From contig OY754465.1 in the NCBI GenBank assembly GCA_963575645.1, positions 52,599,901 to 52,663,900 on the forward strand: a stretch of 64,000 nt of DNA, in the 5' to 3' direction. The notes beneath the pieces are model-generated. The model ran no database searches. It was given only the letters and a program-made list of their open reading frames with translations, and was not told the DNA's origin. Within the stretch, counting starts at the first letter, position 1, and each line of letters opens with the position of its first letter. Position numbers and translations under genes: made by a program. This stretch comes from Xanthostigma xanthostigma (taxonomy: Eukaryota; Arthropoda; Insecta; Raphidioptera; Raphidiidae). Of this stretch, positions 1,598 to 57,603 are shown one piece after another.

Positions 1598-2152
1598 CCA
1601 AGTCTGAATAGAACTCTTCAAATAAATAAAATTTATATAATAATGTCGTTACTAAGCATAAAATTGAATATGACCATAAAATTAATTGGAATAATGTTAA
1701 AATTTTAGATAATGAAAGTAATTATTTCAAAAGAAGTATTTCGGAAATGTTGTATATAAAATCTAATAAAAACTCTCTTAATGCTCAATTAGATACCGAA
1801 AATTTAAGTAATATTTATGATATTATTTTGAAATAAAATTTTGTTTTTTTAAATAACTTTTTCTTTATGGATACTTTGATATTCATGACTATCTACGTAT
1901 TAAAAAATTTGTTTGTTATTAATTTTTCATTAATTCTTTTGAATCTTTCAAAAATATTCAATCATCGTGCATTCTATTACATAATATTAAATAACTAATA
2001 CTAATATTTTTTTTTTTTTAGATTTTTCTGAAGAAGTTCCAAATCCGGATCGCAACGTCATCCTTTATTATTTTGATTTATATTTTTTTATAATTTTTGT
2101 CAATATATGGTCTGAAAAAAATTGGTCGACAATTTTATTTATTTGAAGATTT
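1598..2152 (+). mobile_element. Penelope-like element, 5'-truncated, with 13-bp target duplication
   Basis: The sequence CTACTGTAACTAT occurs at 1585-1597 and again at 2153-2165, so it is a 13-bp target-site duplication and fixes both borders. Inside, the first about 45 bases match the right terminus of the family in inverted orientation (compare 27290-27320). Then come the last 64 codons of the PLE protein (1642-1836), a short 3' untranslated stretch and the family terminal repeat with a degenerate hammerhead-like motif at 2028-2056 (GAAA has become GCAA). An inverted scrap joined to a 5'-truncated body is a known outcome of PLE and LINE integration. The family recurs at 9376-10104, 25780-26219, 27255-27482, 36488-36607 and 47944-48415. 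Confidence 0.85.
1642..1836 (+). pseudogene. C-terminus of Penelope-like GIY-YIG endonuclease/RT protein
   Basis: This 64-codon frame ends in TAA at 1834-1836 and reads from NVVTKHK to YDIILK. It contains the order H-K-I, DHKINWNNVKILDNE, YFKRSISEMLYIKS and NAQLDTENL. That pattern (W-x3-K-I-L-D-x-E, then R-x-S-E-M-x-x-I-K, then a closing N-x-Q-x-D-T) is the signature of the last part of the GIY-YIG endonuclease domain at the C-terminus of Penelope-like retroelements, which cuts target DNA to prime reverse transcription. The glutamate in LDNE would be the conserved metal-binding residue. The RT domain and the GIY-YIG half are absent because the copy is 5'-truncated. An in-frame stop at 1627-1629 lies in the inverted terminal scrap. 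The piece cannot function alone but identifies the whole family. Confidence 0.8.
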
Positions 2153-3400: not shown

Positions 3401-3907
3401 AAAATCTTAATAAAATTGGCGACAGGACCCAAATCACAAATTTTGTGAAAACACTAATTTTCGGATATGGATTTATTTATTGAAAGATATATTTATTTAA
3501 TTTGATGCAGATGTTGGATAGATTACCGAAGTGTTGAGCTAATGCGCATGACTGTGACTGTGTTCTCAGAGAGGTTGGAAGATAGCTTCCATTGTCGGCA
3601 GGGTTTGGCACTGCGACTCGAGAACTGACACTTGGCTGGAGCATTGATAAAAGTTTATACTAAATGTGCAGTAAGTAATTAGTGAAAATCTCTATTTTTC
3701 CCATTTTTAACTGCCTCTACTTCATTAGTCGTGTTTGTTGGCAGCTGGTTCTAGATTACCGAAGTGTTTGTTGGCAATAATTATGATTGAAGATTTCACT
3801 GGAAAGTGGACAGGTGAAGATAATATAACACCTTTTTGCGATAATAGAACGTTTCGCTGCTTTTATTGCAGCATCTTCAGATACTGAAATTGATTCATTT
3901 ATTAATA
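3401..3907. other. Repeat fragments upstream of the solo LTR
   Basis: The phrase GTCGGCAGGGTTT at 3595-3607 recurs near 31472-31484 and, reversed, near 35292-35304, so it belongs to a dispersed repeat. The phrase TAGATTACCGAAGTGTT is present twice (about 3520 and 3752). A hammerhead-like motif lies on the minus strand at 3851-3880. No gene is seen. Confidence 0.5.
3851..3880 (-). ncRNA. Hammerhead-like motif (CTGAAGA, stem, GAAAC)
   Basis: On the minus strand the order is CTGAAGA, one base, GCTGC, a seven-base loop, GCAGC, then GAAAC. This is the conserved box order of a hammerhead ribozyme, with a perfect 5-bp stem II but one extra base between CTGAAGA and the stem. The flanks for stems I and III were not convincing by eye. 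Such motifs are known from Penelope-like terminal repeats, so this may be an old PLE remnant. Activity is unknown. Confidence 0.35.
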
Positions 3908-9936: not shown

Positions 9937-10007
9937 TTAAAAAAATAGTGAATTTTATTAAAAACTAATTTATTACCTAATTAATTTTTATATTTTTTAG
10001 ATCAATT

Positions 10008-10047
10008 CTGAAGAAGTTCCAAATCCGGACCGAAATATTAATGTACT
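10008..10047 (+). ncRNA. Hammerhead-like motif in PLE copy
   Basis: CTGAAGA at 10008-10014, a base, a TTCC...GGAC-type stem, then GAAA at 10032-10035, followed by TATTAATGTA which could form a very short stem III with a GTA cleavage triplet. The motif matches the box order known in Penelope-like terminal repeats. Stem I pairing is weak by eye. Confidence 0.4.
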
Positions 10048-21073: not shown

Positions 21074-21975
21074 CAGTGTAAAATATAACGACAAACTCCT
21101 TAAAACGTCAAAATTACTTAAGAGTATTCGTCCTTGAAAACACCCCCTGCACCCTTCATCTCAAATCTTTTCCCCTCGCCTAAAAACGGTTCGCGCTCTC
21201 CCGACGCTATTTTTAAAGCTAGAGGGTTCTGGTAAACGCCAAATGAAAGATAAAGAATCAGACTACAGATTCTTCAGGCGAATTTTTTGAAAAACAGTTT
21301 CTCCTACGTGTGAAACATTACGTAACTTAGTATTTTTTTCAAAAGGTTATAAGTTTTTTCTGGAATTTTTTTTCAAAAAATTCGCCTGAAGGATCTGTAG
21401 TCTGATTCTTTGTCTTTCATTTGGCGTTTACTAGAACCCCCTAGCTTTAAAAATAGCGTCGGGAGAGCACGAACCGTTTTTAGGCGAGGGGAAAAGATTT
21501 GTGATGAAGGGTGCAGGGGGTGTTTGCAGGGACGAATACTCTTAAAACGTCGAAATTACTTAACTCTAGTTGGTTTACTTTGTTGCTCAATACAATTATA
21601 CACTCTAAATAACGACACACCAACTCTAAATAACGACAATTATACACTTTAAATAACGACACACCCACTCTAAATAACGACAACAACACGATATCATTAG
21701 GCAATAAACAGTACTTGTTTGTTATTTTGTTGTCGGCATCATGCGTACCAAAGATTCTATGTTTGTTGGGATTATCTTTCATATGCTTAGCTCAGCTGTA
21801 ATTTGTGTTGGTATAAATGTCTATTGGTCAGTTGTAAGTTTTATATATTACGAGTAAATGCATATTATAGTAAAAAAATATTAATGGATTATTTCTTCCG
21901 TCCGATTAACGACAACTCTCAATAACGCCACAAAGTGCACGGTCCTTTGAGTGTCGCTAAATAGAGTTTACACTG
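21074..21975. mobile_element. pogo-like MITE, copy 2, interrupted
   Basis: Ends CAGTGTAAAATATAACGAC and AGTTTACACTG with TA flanks. It matches copy 1 but is enlarged by a palindromic element at 21122-21541 and by a small expansion of a unit of about 38 bases containing CTCTAAATAACGACA (21600-21690). Confidence 0.75.
21122..21541. mobile_element. Palindromic TTAA element (family P), copy 1
   Basis: GAGTATTCGTCC at the left is mirrored by GGACGAATACTC at the right, and the arms match for about 170 bases (ACACCCCCTGCACCCTTCAT, TTTTCCCCTCGCCTAAAAAC, AGACAAAGAATC-type text). TTAA stands on both sides. Unusually, each side shows the same 22-base stretch from TTAA to TTAA (21100-21121 and 21542-21563, one mismatch). 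Copy 2 is at 29110-29520. Open frames over both arms are palindrome artefacts. Confidence 0.8.
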
Positions 21976-25620: not shown

Positions 25621-25843
25621 GTATGTAGACTCATAACTTTTCGATGGGTTAACCGATTTGAAAATTTTCGACGCCGCTAAAAAGGTATTTTTTCAAGTTC
25701 GCAACTTAAGGGGGTGTAAAGGTTTCTGATAAAATGGCCATATTTCAAAAATCAGTAAAATGAAAGACATTAAATTCATCAATAAATAAAATTATCGACC
25801 AATTTTTCAGACAATAATATATTAACAAACAATATAAAATTAA

Positions 25844-25881
25844 TACATTAACGTTTCAATCCGGATTTGGACCTTCTTCAG
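25844..25881 (-). ncRNA. Hammerhead-like motif, left arm of palindromic PLE
   Basis: Read on the minus strand: CTGAAGA, a base, GGTCC, loop, GGATT, GAAACG, then TTAATGTA. Mirror image of the motif at 26087-26124. Confidence 0.4.
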
Positions 25882-26086
25882 AATTGATCTAAAAATATAA
25901 AAATAATTAATATTTAAATATAATTCGCTTTTTAAAGAATTTTTCAAAATTAATTATGAAATTCAAAATAATGAAAAAATAATTATTATTTTTTCATTAT
26001 TTTGAATTTCATTATTAATTTTGAAAAATTATTTAAAAAGCGAATTATATTTAAATATTAATTATTTTTATATTTTTAAATCAATT

Positions 26087-26124
26087 CTGAAGAAGGTCCA
26101 AATCCGGATTGAAACGTTAATGTA
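26087..26124 (+). ncRNA. Hammerhead-like motif, right arm of palindromic PLE
   Basis: CTGAAGA at 26087-26093, a single A, then GGTCC pairing with GGATT through two G-T pairs, GAAA at 26111-26114, CG-TTAA-TG as a minimal stem III and GTA as the candidate cleavage triplet. The extra A and the weak stem I leave activity uncertain. Confidence 0.4.
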
Positions 26125-26232
26125 TTAATTTTATATTGTTTGTTAATATATTGTCTGAAAAATTGGTCGATAATTTTATTTATTGAAGAGTTCTAATCAG
26201 ACGTTAATCAAAGATTTGAACATTAAATTCAT

Positions 26233-26949: not shown

Positions 26950-27027
26950 GCGCAGCAATTTGTTTGTTTTTATTTTTTTTAGAGTTGTAAATCATACGAT
27001 TAAATTTTGTTTAATAATCCTATTATA

Positions 27028-27190
27028 TGATAGGTATTTAGAAAAAATTCCGTGGCATAAGGATCGAAAATGAAGCAATACTGATGATACAAAACGTATC
27101 GAAACGTCGGCATTAAATGCAAGTTTAAAAATTTCAGTATTGCTTCATTTTCGATCCTTATGCCACGGAATCTTTTTCAAATACCTATCA
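27028..27190. mobile_element. Palindromic element with hammerhead-like loop
   Basis: TGATAGGTATTT...TTCCGTGGCATAAGG at the left is mirrored exactly at the right (CCTTATGCCACGGAA...AATACCTATCA); each arm is about 60 bases. The loop contains CTGATGATACAAAACGTATCGAAACGTC (27081-27108 in outline), again a CTGANGA-hairpin-GAAAC order. A related palindrome with shared GTGGCATA-GG-TC text is at 45287-45495. Confidence 0.6.
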
Positions 27191-27254
27191 TTAACTTCAA
27201 TGGATCACAGTTACTCTATTGAATAGAGTCAAATTCATGTAATCCTATTATATA

Positions 27255-27482
27255 TAAAAAAAATTTCAAATATTTGATTAACGTCTGATTAGAACTCTTC
27301 AATAAATAAAATTATCGACCAATTTTTCAGACAAATTATTAACAAAAAATATATAATTAATACATTAACGTTTCAATTTGGACCTTCTTCAGAATTGATC
27401 TAAAAAATATAAAAAATAATTAATATTTAAAATCTAATTCGCTTTTTTTTTGTCTGAAAAATTGGTCGATAGTTTTATTTAT
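27255..27482 (-). mobile_element. Penelope-like terminal fragment, internally deleted
   Basis: Begins TTTGATTAACGTCTGATTAG and carries the minus-strand hammerhead-like motif (27361-27392; stem II has lost about five bases). It then jumps to the mirror-image end (TTGGTCGATAGTTTTATTTATT), so the palindrome centre has been lost. AAAAAAATTT on both sides may be the target duplication. Confidence 0.7.
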
Positions 27483-27567
27483 TAAAAAAAAATTTGCCTA
27501 AAAAATATAAGAATAATTTTTCAACCCATGGAGTTATTATTTGCAGTAAATCTGCGAAAAAAATTAA

Positions 27568-28717: not shown

Positions 28718-29109
28718 ATTAGTTACATTCTGTATATACACGAATTTTAAAACTCAAGTCAAAATGATATAGTCGGTTATGTAACAGAGGAATCCGGAAT
28801 TAAATTTTAAAACTGAGCGTATCAATTTGTACAGAAACCACATCAAAGGACCTTAAACCAAGCCGAGTTACCAAAGCCTCGTGATGCTGCATAATATGTA
28901 ACATAGAGAACTACTTTTCTCTGCACGTTGTGTTAAAAACCTGTATCTACGATGTGTTCAGACTTAACAGCGTCTACGTCATCAGGTGATACAGATCGTG
29001 CAGTCCATTCATCTGCTCGGAACTAGACTTCTAAATTCCCATTGAAAGTACAGAATATGTAGTGTTATGAGTTCGTAATGTCTACGTCATTAGACGAAAT
29101 GCTTTTGTT
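28718..29109. other. Unassigned DNA
   Basis: No coding or repeat signal recognised. Confidence 0.35.
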
Positions 29110-29520
29110 TCGTCCCTGCAAACACCCCCTGCACCCTTCATCTCAAATCTTTTCCCCTCGCCTGAAAACGGTTCGCGCTCTCCCGACGCTATTTTTAAAG
29201 CTAGAGGGTTCTGGTAAACGCCAAATGAAAGACAAAGAATTCTACAGATCATTCAGACGAATTTTTTGAAAAAAAATTCCTGAAAAAACTTACAACCTTT
29301 TGAAAAAAATAATAAGTTACATAATATTTCACACGTAGGCGAAACTGTTTTTCAAAAAATTCGCCTGAAAGATTTGTAGTCCGATTCTTTGTCTTTCATT
29401 TGGCGTTTACCAGAACCCTCTAGCTTTAAAAATAGCGTCGGGAGAGCGCGAACCGTTTTTAGGCGAGGGGAAAAGATTTGAGATGAAGGGTGCAGGGGGT
29501 ATTTGCAGGGACGAATACTC
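29110..29520. mobile_element. Palindromic TTAA element (family P), copy 2, left tip lost
   Basis: Same arms as 21122-21541 (CCTGCAAACACCCCCTGCAC and inverse). The left end starts only at CGTCCCTG while the right end is complete (GGACGAATACTC then TTAA). The twin open frames at 29078-29269 and 29352-29555 encode the same peptide because they are the two arms. Confidence 0.75.
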
Positions 29521-47685: not shown

Positions 47686-48037
47686 TTTACATACAGTGCC
47701 GGATTAAGACTCCTTGATGCCCTAAGCATTTCTTGCCCCATCTCTAATATGTTCAATTTATAAAAAAAAATTCAAATTGATAGAAAAAAGTTAAAAAGCA
47801 TAGATTTTTAGGAAAAAAAATTGGATATTACAATCAATGCTCTGATTGAAAATTTGGCTGTCTATAAAATCAGACCTTAGGCATTTTTATACAATTAATA
47901 GGAAAAAGTATCAAAATTTTAAAATTAGAAAAATTGAACCCTTAATTCAAATCTTTGATTAACGTCTGATTAGAACTCTTCAATAAATAAAATTATCGAC
48001 CAATTTTTCAGACAATATATTAACAAAATATAATTAA

Positions 48038-48075
48038 TACATTAACGTTTCGATCCCGATTTGGATTTTCTTCAG
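48038..48075 (-). ncRNA. Hammerhead-like motif, left arm
   Basis: Mirror of 48319-48356 with one base difference in the stem II partner. Confidence 0.4.
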
Positions 48076-48318
48076 AATGGATCTAAAAATATAAAAAATA
48101 ATTAATAATTATTTAGTTTCTATTTATTTTTAACGGAATTCGTGAGATTTTTTTAATATTGAAATATTGAAAAAATAATAACAAACAATTTTTTATTATG
48201 TTTCATTGTTTGTTATTATTTTTTCAATATTTCAATATTAAAAAAATCTCACGAGTTCCGTTAAAAATAAATAGAAACTAAATAATTATTAATTATTTTT
48301 TATATTTTTAGATCCATT

Positions 48319-48356
48319 CTGAAGAAGATCCAAATCGGGATCGAAACGTTAATGTA
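48319..48356 (+). ncRNA. Hammerhead-like motif, right arm (best stem II)
   Basis: CTGAAGA (48319-48325), one A, GATCC, loop AAATCG, GGATC, GAAA (48343-48346), then CG-TTAA-TG and GTA. The 5-bp stem II is perfect here. Hammerhead motifs are known from PLE terminal repeats; the extra A before stem II and poor stem I are reservations. Confidence 0.45.
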
Positions 48357-48497
48357 TTAATTATATTTTGTTAATATATTGTCTGAAAAATTGGTCGATA
48401 ATTTTATTTATTGATGAACCCTTGAGAAATAATGTTTTTTCTTTTTCATTTTCAAAAATAAATTGCTATTTATTTTTAACTTTTGTACTTCTAAAGA

Positions 48498-48646
48498 CAT
48501 AAATAAAAAAATAAAGAGTAGTTACTTCTTCCCACAACAGTATTATTAGCGGGTGTACATTTCGGGAGCTATGCTCTCATCTTCAGCAAACACTAAACTT
48601 AGTTTATTGTGATGTTTAAGTAACTATTCTTTATTTTTTATTTATG
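48498..48646. mobile_element. Palindromic element with hammerhead-like loop
   Basis: CATAAATAAAAAAATAAAG and AGTAGTTACTT at the left are mirrored by AAGTAACTATT and CTTTATTTTTTATTTATG. The loop holds, on the minus strand (48561-48586), CTGAAGA, T, GAGAGC, ATA, GCTCCC, GAAA: the same box order with a different stem. Confidence 0.55.
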
Positions 48647-48928
48647 TTTCAACCACAGTGTTCTTTATATTTTTATTCTAAAGACATGATAGATCAAATT
48701 TTTAAGAACATGACAAAAAGACAAAAAAAAATGTTGACACGGTTTAGTGAGGTACTTTTCTTTTCTGAGTGGTGCTTCTTGGTGCCCCCTACGACGTGTT
48801 GCCCTAAGAAACTGCTTAATTTGCTTGTAGGTTAATCCGGCACTGTTTACATAAAATAAAAAGTAAATAGTTTATTCATCTGGCGGCCCGGTTCGGCTTC
48901 GCCCTTGATTGCCACTAAATTTTTATTA

Positions 48929-55399: not shown

Positions 55400-57603
55400 T
55401 AATTAATTGTTGGGTAATTCAATTCTGAACCAGTTCAAAGATCCGACAAAAGATTCATGGGAGCCGACTCCGTTCTTTCTGACCCAATGATTCAATAAAT
55501 CAGTCAACTGTTATTAAAATTATGTTAAATAAACGTGATGTAGCGCGAGCTCGGTATCTTAAAAATAAAACTGAATCTACAAAAAAATACTATAATACTT
55601 TAAAAAAATACGTAAAAGACGCTATTAAAAGGGAAAAAAGAGCTTACTTTGACTTCATGGTTAACAGAAATAAAAGTTCCAAGTCGTTGTGGAACAATTT
55701 ACAGAAAATTAATGTCACTCGCTCACAGGACTCAAATATTCCACTTAAACTTAGAAACCCTTTTGAAATAAATAAATATTTCTTGAGCAATGCGAATCAG
55801 AATATTGATATAAACAATGACTTTCTTGATTTTTATTTAAATAATCGGCATCCAAACTGCACTGAAACCTTTAGTCTCGTCACGATCTCCAGCGAAGAAA
55901 TTTGTGATATAGTGACAAGTATCTCTAGTAATGCCATCGGTGTTGATGGCATTTCCATTAAAATTTTGAAATTGTGTTTGCCGGCTTGTTTAGGTGTTCT
56001 GACTAATATAATCAATAGCTCAATTTTAGAGAACTCTTTCCCTTCCTTGTGGAAAAAAGCTATTATCCGGCCAATAGCCAAAATTTCAAATCCGCAAGAT
56101 TATAAAGACTTGCGGCCCATTAGCATTTTATGTGCTGTCTCTAAAATAGTAGAAAAAGTTGTTTATAAACAACTTACAACTTACTTAAAATTAAATAGTC
56201 TGTTCCCTGAATACCAGTCAGGGTTCAGGAATAATCATAGTACTGCTACAGCTCTCACTCTAGTCTCTGATGACATAAGAAAAGCAATGGACGAATCACT
56301 GTGTACTGCCTTGGTTCTGCTTGACTATAGTAAAGCTTTCGACACGATAAATCATAAACTTCTCTTAGCAAAACTCCATTACCTTGGACTTTCGGCAGAT
56401 TGCATAGAATGGTTTGATTCCTACTTAACTAATAGATGTCAAGCAGTTTTCTTCGAAGTTAACAATATCTCAGATTTTCAACCTGTTTCTAAAGGCGTAC
56501 CACAAGGCTCAATAATTGGTCCATTGCTTTTCATTTTATATATTTTTGATTTCTGTAATTGCGTTCATCATTGCAAATTCCATCAATACGCTGACGATAC
56601 GCAAATTTATTTTTCATTCCATGTATCTGACAGGTCTAAAGCTGCTGAAATTATAAATAGTGATCTAAAATCTATACATGAGTACTCTACTAACCATGCC
56701 TTATCCCTGAACTCTAGTAAATCTACTGTCATTTATATCGCAAATAGCTGTGTTCAAAAAGCAATGAGCAGTTCTAGATTGTTTTTAAATATTAATGGAA
56801 ATGCCTTACCTATTGTAGATAGTGCTAAGAATCTAGGTGTTACCTTTGATTCGCAAATGAAATTTTACCAGCACATCTCGAATAAATTTAGATTTGCTTT
56901 TAGTAGACTTAAGGTTTTATATCCGTATAAGTCTTTTTTAACACCAACAATGAAACTAAGATTGGTAAATGCTCTGATTCTTCCTATTATTGAATATGGG
57001 GATGTTGTCTATGGAGGCTCCCTAACATTTGAGTCCCGTAATAAAATACAGAAACTACAAAATGCCTGTATGAGATTTATTTATGAAATTCCCTTTAGGG
57101 AACATATTAGTCCATATTTAATGCGCTATGAAATTTTGAACATGGCTGAGCGGCGCTTGCTTCATTTATACAATCTCATTTTTAAAATTTTAAAAACAAA
57201 AGAGCCTAATTATTTAAAAACCAAATTACAGATTAATCTTAATAAATACAGTAGTAGACATGTCATATATGTAACACCCCGTTTTAATTCAAATTCTTTT
57301 AAGAAATCCTTTTCATACTCAGCCCCGAAATATCTGAACGAACTCAGTGACACTATTAAAATCAATATACATAAAATAAGTTTAAAAGCTCTATCAAGTA
57401 GTATAAATAAGCTACTTTTGGATCGTAGAAGGCAATAAGGTGATTAACCAATCTTAGGTTCTTTGAATCAATTTTTTACTGGTTTGTTTTAAAATATTGT
57501 AAACTTGTTTGTGAATGTTATAGGACAGATGGAAGAACAAACACACGTTTGAATTCTGTGCCTTTTGCTTATTGAGCAATAAACATATATTTATTTATTT
57601 ATT
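55400..57603 (+). mobile_element. Non-LTR retrotransposon (jockey/CR1 group), 5'-truncated
   Basis: Contains the RT frame 55522-57438, a 3' untranslated region with an AATAAA (about 57578-57583) and a terminal run of TTTA/TTATT repeats (57590-57603). The endonuclease domain and any ORF1 are missing. Microsatellite-like 3' tails and 5' truncation are typical of CR1-type LINEs. No target duplication could be read with confidence. Confidence 0.8.
55522..57438 (+). CDS. Reverse transcriptase region of a CR1/jockey-group LINE ORF2 (638 aa, N-terminally truncated)
   Basis: An uninterrupted 638-codon frame. Residues 1-60 (KRDVARARYLKN...YVKDAIKREKRAYF) are the basic linker that follows the endonuclease in LINE ORF2 proteins. 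The RT domain follows: DLRPISIL (about 196-203), EYQSGFR (230-236), LVLLDYSKAFDTINH (265-279) with the first catalytic Asp at 268, SKGVPQGSIIGPLLFILYI (323-341), QYADDTQIYF (355-364) with catalytic Asp 358 and 359, and thumb text LGVTFD. All three catalytic Asp are present and no stop or frameshift interrupts the RT. The thumb and C-terminal extension run to the stop at 57436. An in-frame stop at 55483 separates it from upstream sequence, and no AP-type endonuclease motifs precede it, so the protein would lack target-cleavage activity. The ATG is simply the first in frame, not a real start. The intact RT suggests a fairly young insertion. CR1, Daphne, Kiri or jockey membership cannot be separated by eye. 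Confidence 0.85.
   Translation: MLNKRDVARARYLKNKTESTKKYYNTLKKYVKDAIKREKRAYFDFMVNRNKSSKSLWNNLQKINVTRSQDSNIPLKLRNPFEINKYFLSNANQNIDINNDFLDFYLNNRHPNCTETFSLVTISSEEICDIVTSISSNAIGVDGISIKILKLCLPACLGVLTNIINSSILENSFPSLWKKAIIRPIAKISNPQDYKDLRPISILCAVSKIVEKVVYKQLTTYLKLNSLFPEYQSGFRNNHSTATALTLVSDDIRKAMDESLCTALVLLDYSKAFDTINHKLLLAKLHYLGLSADCIEWFDSYLTNRCQAVFFEVNNISDFQPVSKGVPQGSIIGPLLFILYIFDFCNCVHHCKFHQYADDTQIYFSFHVSDRSKAAEIINSDLKSIHEYSTNHALSLNSSKSTVIYIANSCVQKAMSSSRLFLNINGNALPIVDSAKNLGVTFDSQMKFYQHISNKFRFAFSRLKVLYPYKSFLTPTMKLRLVNALILPIIEYGDVVYGGSLTFESRNKIQKLQNACMRFIYEIPFREHISPYLMRYEILNMAERRLLHLYNLIFKILKTKEPNYLKTKLQINLNKYSSRHVIYVTPRFNSNSFKKSFSYSAPKYLNELSDTIKINIHKISLKALSSSINKLLLDRRRQ

Follow-up and report, generated by a model that had tools for sequence, protein, structure and literature searches.

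Hammerhead-like motifs and head-to-head palindromes of Penelope-like elements in the genome of Xanthostigma xanthostigma

The window analyzed here, a 64-kb stretch of contig C2 of Xanthostigma xanthostigma, carries several copies of a short motif in which the boxes CTGANGA and GAAA enclose a hairpin (Table 1). All three sites named in the original prediction (48498-48646, 27028-27190 and 3851-3880) exist. Covariance-model searches of the window gave a total of 9 matches at E<0.01, several of them from a lineage used in model building. The palindrome at 48498 is an insertion of the GAGAGC lineage, which we term PLE-A; its two arms are 88% (48608-48506) and 84% (48618-48684) identical to the PLE-A pseudo-LTR. 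Its motif has one broken pair because the family stem is GAGAGC/GCTCTC, and no model match at E = 1 or better corresponds to it, a divergent helix III stretch being the probable reason. The box CTGATGA in the GATAC palindrome is chimeric: the left arm ends ..CAATACTGA and the right arm begins GATGATACAAAAC, with a 2-nt overlap GA (by eye) and a junction at about 27084/27085. Helix II and GAAA are intact there, but the 5' half of the core has lost its original sequence; since the box was made by the junction of the arms, this copy is not an intact ribozyme. The solitary motif at 3880 (minus strand) has an intact helix II, a mismatch at the first helix I pair, and no inverted repeat around it, and its E value derives from a covariance model built without its lineage. 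The 9-bp repeat flanking the GATCC insertion is weak, as 67 of 1056 mismatched-flank controls reach at least 9. Taken alone, none of the three named copies supports a working ribozyme; it is the family data described below that argue for a conserved fold.

The window also contains a 651-aa open frame (55483-57438, plus strand) that by eye resembles a LINE reverse transcriptase. Two long look-alike palindromes (by eye; 21118-21545 and 29109-29515) are both weak matches to the MIR9486 miRNA model. They represent another palindromic repeat family, with no motif match at E<0.01 inside.

Table 1. Motif copies and associated insertions in the 64-kb window. TSD, target site duplication.
Feature	Position	Strand	Terminal repeat	Remarks
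Decayed GATCC-type motif	2022..2065	+		GCAA replaces GAAA; E = 0.0022
Solitary motif CTGAAGA-T-GCTGC-AATAAAA-GCAGC-GAAA	3842..3886 (3880 minus)	-		E = 1e-6
GATCC-type motif	10002..10045	+		No clear palindrome; helix II partly decayed; E = 1.1e-6
GGTCC-lineage (PLE-B) insertion	25767..26232		TSD ACATTAAATTCAT at 25767-25779 and 26220-26232	Head-to-head palindrome 25773-26192; tail right
Hammerhead motif, left arm of GGTCC palindrome	25844..25887	-		E = 2.4e-9
Hammerhead motif, right arm of GGTCC palindrome	26081..26124	+		E = 2.4e-9
GATAC-lineage insertion	27015..27253	+	TSD TAATCCTATTATAT at 27015-27028 and 27240-27253	Palindrome 27027-27191; right tail 27192-27239; no PLE protein linked
GATAC motif with chimeric box CTGATGA	27081..27107	+		Model match 27077-27114, E = 0.0019
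Decayed GGTCC-lineage palindrome	27298..27493			Motif 27361-27398 minus, shortened helix II, E = 1.7e-5
GATCC-lineage insertion	47935..48423		9-bp repeat TGAACCCTT at 47935-47943 and 48415-48423	Palindrome 47977-48417; extra stretch left
Hammerhead motif, left arm of GATCC palindrome	48038..48081	-		One broken pair; E = 4.4e-8
Hammerhead motif, right arm of GATCC palindrome	48313..48356	+		E = 3.5e-10
PLE-A (GAGAGC lineage) insertion	48489..48687	-	TSD TTCTAAAGACAT at 48489-48500 and 48676-48687	Head-to-head palindrome about 48497-48647; tail side right, up to 48675
Motif CTGAAGA-T-GAGAGC-ATA-GCTCCC-GAAA	48560..48586	-		One broken helix II pair (A.C); intact form in L077

A loose CTGANGA-hairpin-GAAA pattern was searched over the 623-Mb genome (28 contigs) and gave 54,666 matches (26,897 + 27,769), versus 18,040 (9,443 + 8,597) for the reversed pattern. 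Among 100 places, the first listed on the forward strand in the first 2.9 Mb of contig C1, a stem of at least 4 pairs (G-U allowed) began exactly 1 base after the box in 42, or in 36 without G-U pairs. The other offsets from -2 to 4 gave 0-6 stems each at the same places, and shuffled inserts gave a mean of 1.7 and a maximum of 8 (1000 shuffles). If the share of 42 in 100 held everywhere, there would be about 23,000 stem-bearing copies genome-wide, an extrapolation from one region. With at least 4 Watson-Crick pairs required in 264 kb, offset +1 had 6 matches, whereas 8 simulated first-order shuffles and the reversed sequence all had 0; offsets -2, -1, 0, 2 and 3 had 0 or 1. The canonical helix II offset, 0, was tried and rejected, with 0 matches having 4 Watson-Crick pairs in the 264 kb. 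A covariance model (R1), run on 20 spread 10-kb stretches of C1, gave 11 places at E<=1; 9 had values below 1e-5, and one of these 9 (L012 2348-2391) had served in building the model. Exact copies numbered 457 + 487 genome-wide for the GATAC family motif (CTGAAGA-T-GATAC-AAAAC-GTATC-GAAA), 1,172 + 1,190 for the GAAAA family motif in four spellings, and 490 + 505 (995) for the GAGAGC family motif, with 0 for the reversed control of each. The layout therefore recurs, as predicted, and at a frequency far above that in shuffled sequence.

A second helix emerged from the 1 kb surrounding each of 20 listed places, which had been selected by eye because a stem was visible; 19 of these 20 stretches yielded a total of 25 motif rows. 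The bases before CTGA pair with bases starting four bases after GAAA, at least 2 consecutive pairs being present in 22 of the 25 rows, compared with 2 when the offset is one base earlier and 3 when it is one base later. At this fixed offset, 13 rows (12 lineages plus the window copy at 3880) form 44 of 52 possible helix I pairs; the permuted mean was 24.9 and none of 100,000 permutations was as high. When look-alike lineages were collapsed to 7, 26 of 28 pairs formed, a value reached by 16 of 100,000 permutations. In 3 of 16 rows the offset had been chosen to fit (GAGAGC 12, GCTG 7 and GGCC 10, instead of 8), and these rows were therefore left out of the helix I and covariation tests. Over helices I and II of the 12 aligned lineages, 92.7% of 96 cells are paired, versus 57.1% in shuffled and 33-54% in slid alignments; the covariation score is 1.03 versus 0.27, and 37 cells have changed on both sides, versus 12.3 in shuffled alignments. 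The number of pairs showing a double change (7 of 8) is not unusual, since 83 of 500 shuffles of the 12 lineages reach it. Pairing is thus kept, not lost, in other family members, and the proposal of a conserved RNA structure with compensated stems is borne out.

The boxes CUGANGA and GAAA with helix II between them, and helix I closing both ends, are features of the type I hammerhead, here with one extra base after the first box. The order of elements is helix I, CUGANGA, the extra base, helix II, GAAA, CGU, H17 and helix I. The covariation demonstrates, for a fold predicted from aligned sequences, a minimal type I hammerhead without a real helix III in 12 lineages. No helix III was found in these lineages, which have ACGU (11 of 12) or ACAU (1 of 12) before H17. 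At the same position the GGCC lineage (L083) has ACUAGU and PLE-A has AUGUACAU; ACGU, ACUAGU and AUGUACAU are self-complementary palindromes and ACAU is not. In L083 with L078 (C1:75244300-75244960), ACUAGU can be read either as two helix III pairs or as a six-base self-complementary dimer site. The GATAC loop offers a candidate helix III (AAAC..GUUU), which was discarded for want of any counterpart in the aligned lineages. The extra base, A or U, lies between CUGANGA and helix II in 15 lineage representatives, most of which were picked with this layout in view, while L077, L080 and L083 were reached through PLE proteins. No Rfam 15 hammerhead model matched in the window at gathering or E<=5, or on 8 loci at E<=10; the Rfam rows obtained were mostly miRNA models matching long hairpins below their own cut-offs. 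Minimum free energy folds gave the hammerhead outline in some lineages and not in others, and helix I did not form in that of the PLE-A monomer.

Matches to GIY-YIG domains pointed to C4:23142400-23145900 (L077), a PLE-A copy. It contains an 804-aa open frame (P0001) with matches to RVT_1 (3.1e-11) and GIY-YIG (1.2e-5), so that reverse transcriptase and endonuclease share one frame, as is characteristic of Penelope-like elements (PLEs). The frame sits between two pseudo-LTR stretches, which are identical over 365 nt, lie 2719 bp apart and each carry the exact GAGAGC motif; this corresponds to the tandem or partial tandem pseudo-LTRs of PLEs. A protein search found at least 57 matches, from 100% to 30% identity, and a search of solved structures gave no match to P0001 at E<=0.01. 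The motif at 48498 is, by its sequence, the predicted pseudo-LTR ribozyme of this RT/GIY-YIG PLE, and the suggestion of a PLE origin made in the original prediction is upheld.

Other lineages show the same association. A GGTCC motif lies about 190 nt 3' of a PLE stop (L080), a GATCC motif follows an endonuclease end (L056), a GCTG motif follows an endonuclease fragment (L034), and a GGCC motif lies about 400 nt 3' of a PLE stop in L078 and its neighbour L083. With GATCC and GGTCC counted as one lineage, the motif is next to its own PLE coding sequence in four lineages. Six PLE 3' ends were examined: L077, L080 and L078 with L083 carry the motif, and no motif was found within 130-270 nt after the stop in L079, L081 and L082. 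L079 and L081 resemble the L078 lineage by eye; the motif of that lineage, some 400 nt past the stop, falls beyond the stretch examined. The GATAC and GAAAA lineages show the tail and TSD signature described below, yet no PLE protein was tied to either. The idea that several non-autonomous families share the structure is not supported, given the four lineages with the motif beside their own coding sequence. A cluster of long minus-strand frames at L009 (C1:1000001-1010000) includes one like a retroviral-type integrase and by eye looks Maverick/Polinton-like.

Neighbouring motifs within 3 kb are nearly always arranged head to head: 70 of 77 pairs are of this type, 5 are tandem and 2 tail-to-tail. 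The pairs were drawn from the 95 + 100 + 100 exact-motif places listed for three families, five GATAC places on contig C2 being left out. Each palindrome thus contains the motif region twice, in head-to-head orientation. PLE coding copies show the same arrangement on a kilobase scale, for example C4:23145701-23146942 (minus) with 23146933-23148174 (plus). Ends could be read in 33 palindromes, the other motif places having no inverted repeat or lying at an edge; L032, whose core equals that of L031, and the 48497 palindrome, which is within 450 nt of another motif, were dropped from this set. A TSD of at least 11 bp, in a search allowing -8 to about +60 on either side, was present in 15 of the 33, versus 5 of 1056 mismatched-flank controls; the other 18 show none of that length, through decay or for lack of one. 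All 15 are asymmetric: on one side the palindrome abuts the TSD (-7 to +2), while 13-52 additional nt separate the two on the other. The 48497 palindrome (12-bp duplication) and L032 show the same one-sided pattern. PLEs have an optional tail of 30-40 bp at one end, and the additional 13-52 nt, which varies by lineage more widely than the published range, is the PLE tail (PMC11167929; PMC3846280).

In PLE-A, counted from the first base of CTGAAGA in 5 copies, the short arm ends at +81 to +93 and the tail arm at +117 to +126; a sixth copy, L018, was left out, as one of its arms is just 22 nt long. The shared pseudo-LTR with its tail stops five bases short of the start codon. Upstream of the motif, a TATATAA stretch starts 32 bases ahead of the A in TCAGTT; this A, 14 bases before CTGAAGA, is a putative transcription start site, which we infer from the sequence. 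The right arms of L031 and L032 start at -14. The first 100 of the 995 PLE-A motif copies form 35 head-to-head pairs, 20 of them with gaps of 23-29 nt; 33 pairs, or 66 of the 100 copies, have gaps up to 124 nt. In five of the 35 the gap is at least 77 (77, 78, 124, 1902 and 2529) and the arms extend past -14.

From the 35 pairs, 20 centres were selected for gaps of 23-38. Both arms reach at least 13 nt upstream in 11 of these, left arms at least 14 in 14 and right arms at least 13 in 16, arm lengths being uncertain by at least 1 base where filler and arm agree. Seventeen of the 20 centre sequences are distinct, indicating separate events. In L088 and L103 there is no loop at all and both arms end at -14. 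The -14 boundary is a result for PLE-A only, since the arms of GATCC and GGTCC palindromes start at many points between about -131 and +7, the two arms of a palindrome sometimes sharing one start point.

We consider it probable that the palindromes are a by-product of PLE activity, consisting of two cDNAs of the 5' UTR of the PLE mRNA joined 5' to 5'. The PLE protein would make a staggered double cut in the target, and each 3' end would prime reverse transcription inside the 5' part of the mRNA, one before the tail and the other after it. In PLE-A many polymerases would then run off where the capped RNA begins, about 14 nt ahead of the ribozyme, and end joining would unite the two cDNA ends, with a short overlap or with filler of 0-10 nt. 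The expected PLE-A products are strong-stop-like palindromes of about 230 bp (98 + 134 nt) from an autonomous PLE, most of whose templates in such events would not have been cut by the ribozyme. The arm boundary at -14 speaks for run-off at a capped end. A PLE protein has been shown to cut both strands and to extend them, and its two observed start sites lie on either side of the tail (PMC11167929). One observation runs counter to the scheme: a one-sided tail needs the two sides to differ, and no difference between top and bottom start sites was seen in vitro (PMC11167929), a result that any two-ended model with unequal sides has to account for. If the palindromes are by-products of an autonomous PLE, there is no need to invoke a non-autonomous family, and the label "non-autonomous" does not suit short palindromes that look like direct by-products of PLE mRNA.

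More generally, we are inclined, with modest confidence, to see PLE insertion itself as two-ended target-primed reverse transcription, in which each strand of a staggered cut would prime synthesis on an RNA of its own, the two sides would use different start sites (tail or no tail), and the run-off cDNAs would be joined by their ends. As these start sites are immediately ahead of the start codon, the capped 5' UTR would often give rise to a strong-stop palindrome; many MITE-like palindromes in a genome would be by-products of this kind, and the ribozyme, which lies beside the start sites, would be kept in many lineages by compensatory evolution even though it did not cut most of the inserted templates.

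Self-priming, in which one cDNA or antisense RNA folds back and copies itself into a head-to-head repeat, is preferred, on an antisense template, in PMC3846280. It would account for the centres of L006 and L074, which are 12-nt loops closed by short complementarity (4 of 19 GATAC pairs share a 12-nt gap), and for the GATCC and GGTCC palindromes whose arms start at the same point. It also fits the agreement between the two arms of GAAAA palindromes, which carry the same sequence variant in 15 of 16 pairs (chance 0.44); the three spellings, at 55, 36 and 9 of the 100 places listed, are seldom mixed within one palindrome. Such agreement is expected from self-copying, and equally from a single source locus. 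A self-copied arm should, however, also carry the tail, which is one-sided in 15 of 15 palindromes with a TSD of at least 11 bp, and the joins at -14 in L088 and L103 leave no loop to prime from. The zero-loop joins and one-sided tails together speak against fold-back, which we regard as unlikely to be the general explanation; it may make a minority of palindromes, as L006 and L074 fit it equally well.

If ribozyme-cut RNA were the usual template, the centres of PLE-A palindromes should fall on the cut site. A genome-wide pattern search of both strands for PLE-A palindromes with centres between about +16 and +35 yielded 10 of them (20 rows). No centre falls exactly on the candidate cut sites GGATG/CATCC or TTAGTG/CACTAA; by comparison, the first 100 of the 995 copies include 33 pairs with gaps of at most 124 nt. 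Cut RNA is probably not the usual PLE-A template. Three of the 10 (C2, C9 and C12 of the palindrome search) are centred on GGATGTACATCC, within two bases of a candidate cut site, and are ambiguous, since such a centre could reflect arms that end in TGTACA, which is self-complementary, or cut ends with TA as filler. The rarity of cut-site centres agrees with the finding that ribozyme mutants did not affect insertion in vitro (PMC11167929). A ribozyme kept by compensatory change presumably acts on other RNA, and our guess is that cutting, as a dimer, of tandem read-through transcripts is the simplest other role. Three GATAC motifs lie in direct tandem, about 218 bp apart, at C1:10656699-10657161; this is the nearest thing to a retrozyme array found here.

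That tandem, the three ambiguous centres and the presence of type I hammerheads in short repeats would all suit retrozymes, small circular RNAs that arise by double ribozyme cutting and are inserted by PLE enzymes. We nevertheless find this reading improbable, since only 5 of 77 neighbour pairs are tandem rather than the short tandem repeats of retrozymes, none of the 10 PLE-A palindromes centred near the ribozyme cut lies exactly on a candidate cut site, and helix III is absent; the original suggestion that the families are possibly retrozyme-like is accordingly not supported. Movement by a transposase, as MITE-like DNA transposons with terminal inverted repeats, is more improbable still: short palindromes with TSDs, and three families that each number about 1000 exact motif copies or more, are reminiscent of MITEs, but MITEs share one internal sequence, whereas 17 of 20 selected centres differ within one lineage, and the one-sided tail, the identity to the PLE pseudo-LTR and the PLE coding palindromes of the same form all point elsewhere. 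A chance motif in AT-rich sequence, suggested by the decay of the window copies taken singly and by the 18,040 reversed matches, which show that the loose pattern by itself is common, can be dismissed as refuted for the families by stem offset, shuffles, covariation and exact-family counts, though single weak copies may still be chance.

The by-product reading makes the palindromes a genomic handle on PLE insertion, the later steps of which are described as yet to be validated (PMC11167929). Each short palindrome preserves the two ends of a single event together with their join, and the self-priming and two-strand views can therefore be told apart. The role of a ribozyme kept by compensatory change across lineages in one genome is narrowed, as most PLE-A templates look uncut. 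For annotation, PLEs may be the source of such MITE-like palindromic repeats. Titles and abstract openings of the Penelope literature gave no account of palindromes made of pseudo-LTRs only, which is no proof of absence.

The extra A or U before helix II in the 15 representatives may set the motif apart within its class, and the Rfam 15 models fail to match it. De la Pena and Flores reportedly described, in 2001, a viroid hammerhead with an extra core base, at the A9 / helix II side; one extra core base is shared, in a viroid there and in a PLE here. In other respects the motif resembles the minimal hammerheads of PLEs (Cervera and de la Pena 2014; Lunse, Weinberg and Breaker 2017; via PMC7761336, PMC6466107 and PMC11167929), with a type I core, no helix III and a location in PLE pseudo-LTRs. 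Two of these sources describe minimal type I hammerheads lacking helix III in PLEs (PMC7761336), and such ribozymes as acting as dimers, in tandem, and needing a palindrome at the stem III loop (PMC6466107). The many dispersed copies and the mostly self-complementary ACGU at the helix III position, as the dimer model asks, are further likenesses. Metazoan retrozymes (PMC7229834) likewise have a type I hammerhead in short repeats and many copies. The elements themselves are like the Penelope/Poseidon PLEs of Adineta vaga (PMC3846280) and Anolis (PAc; PMC11167929), which have reverse transcriptase and GIY-YIG in one frame, tandem pseudo-LTRs, head-to-head copies, an optional tail of 30-40 bp and a short TSD. 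They are unlike them in that 66 of the 100 listed PLE-A motif copies are in head-to-head pairs with gaps up to 124 nt, that the tail is one-sided in 15 of 15 palindromes, and that many PLE-A centres lie at a probable start site.
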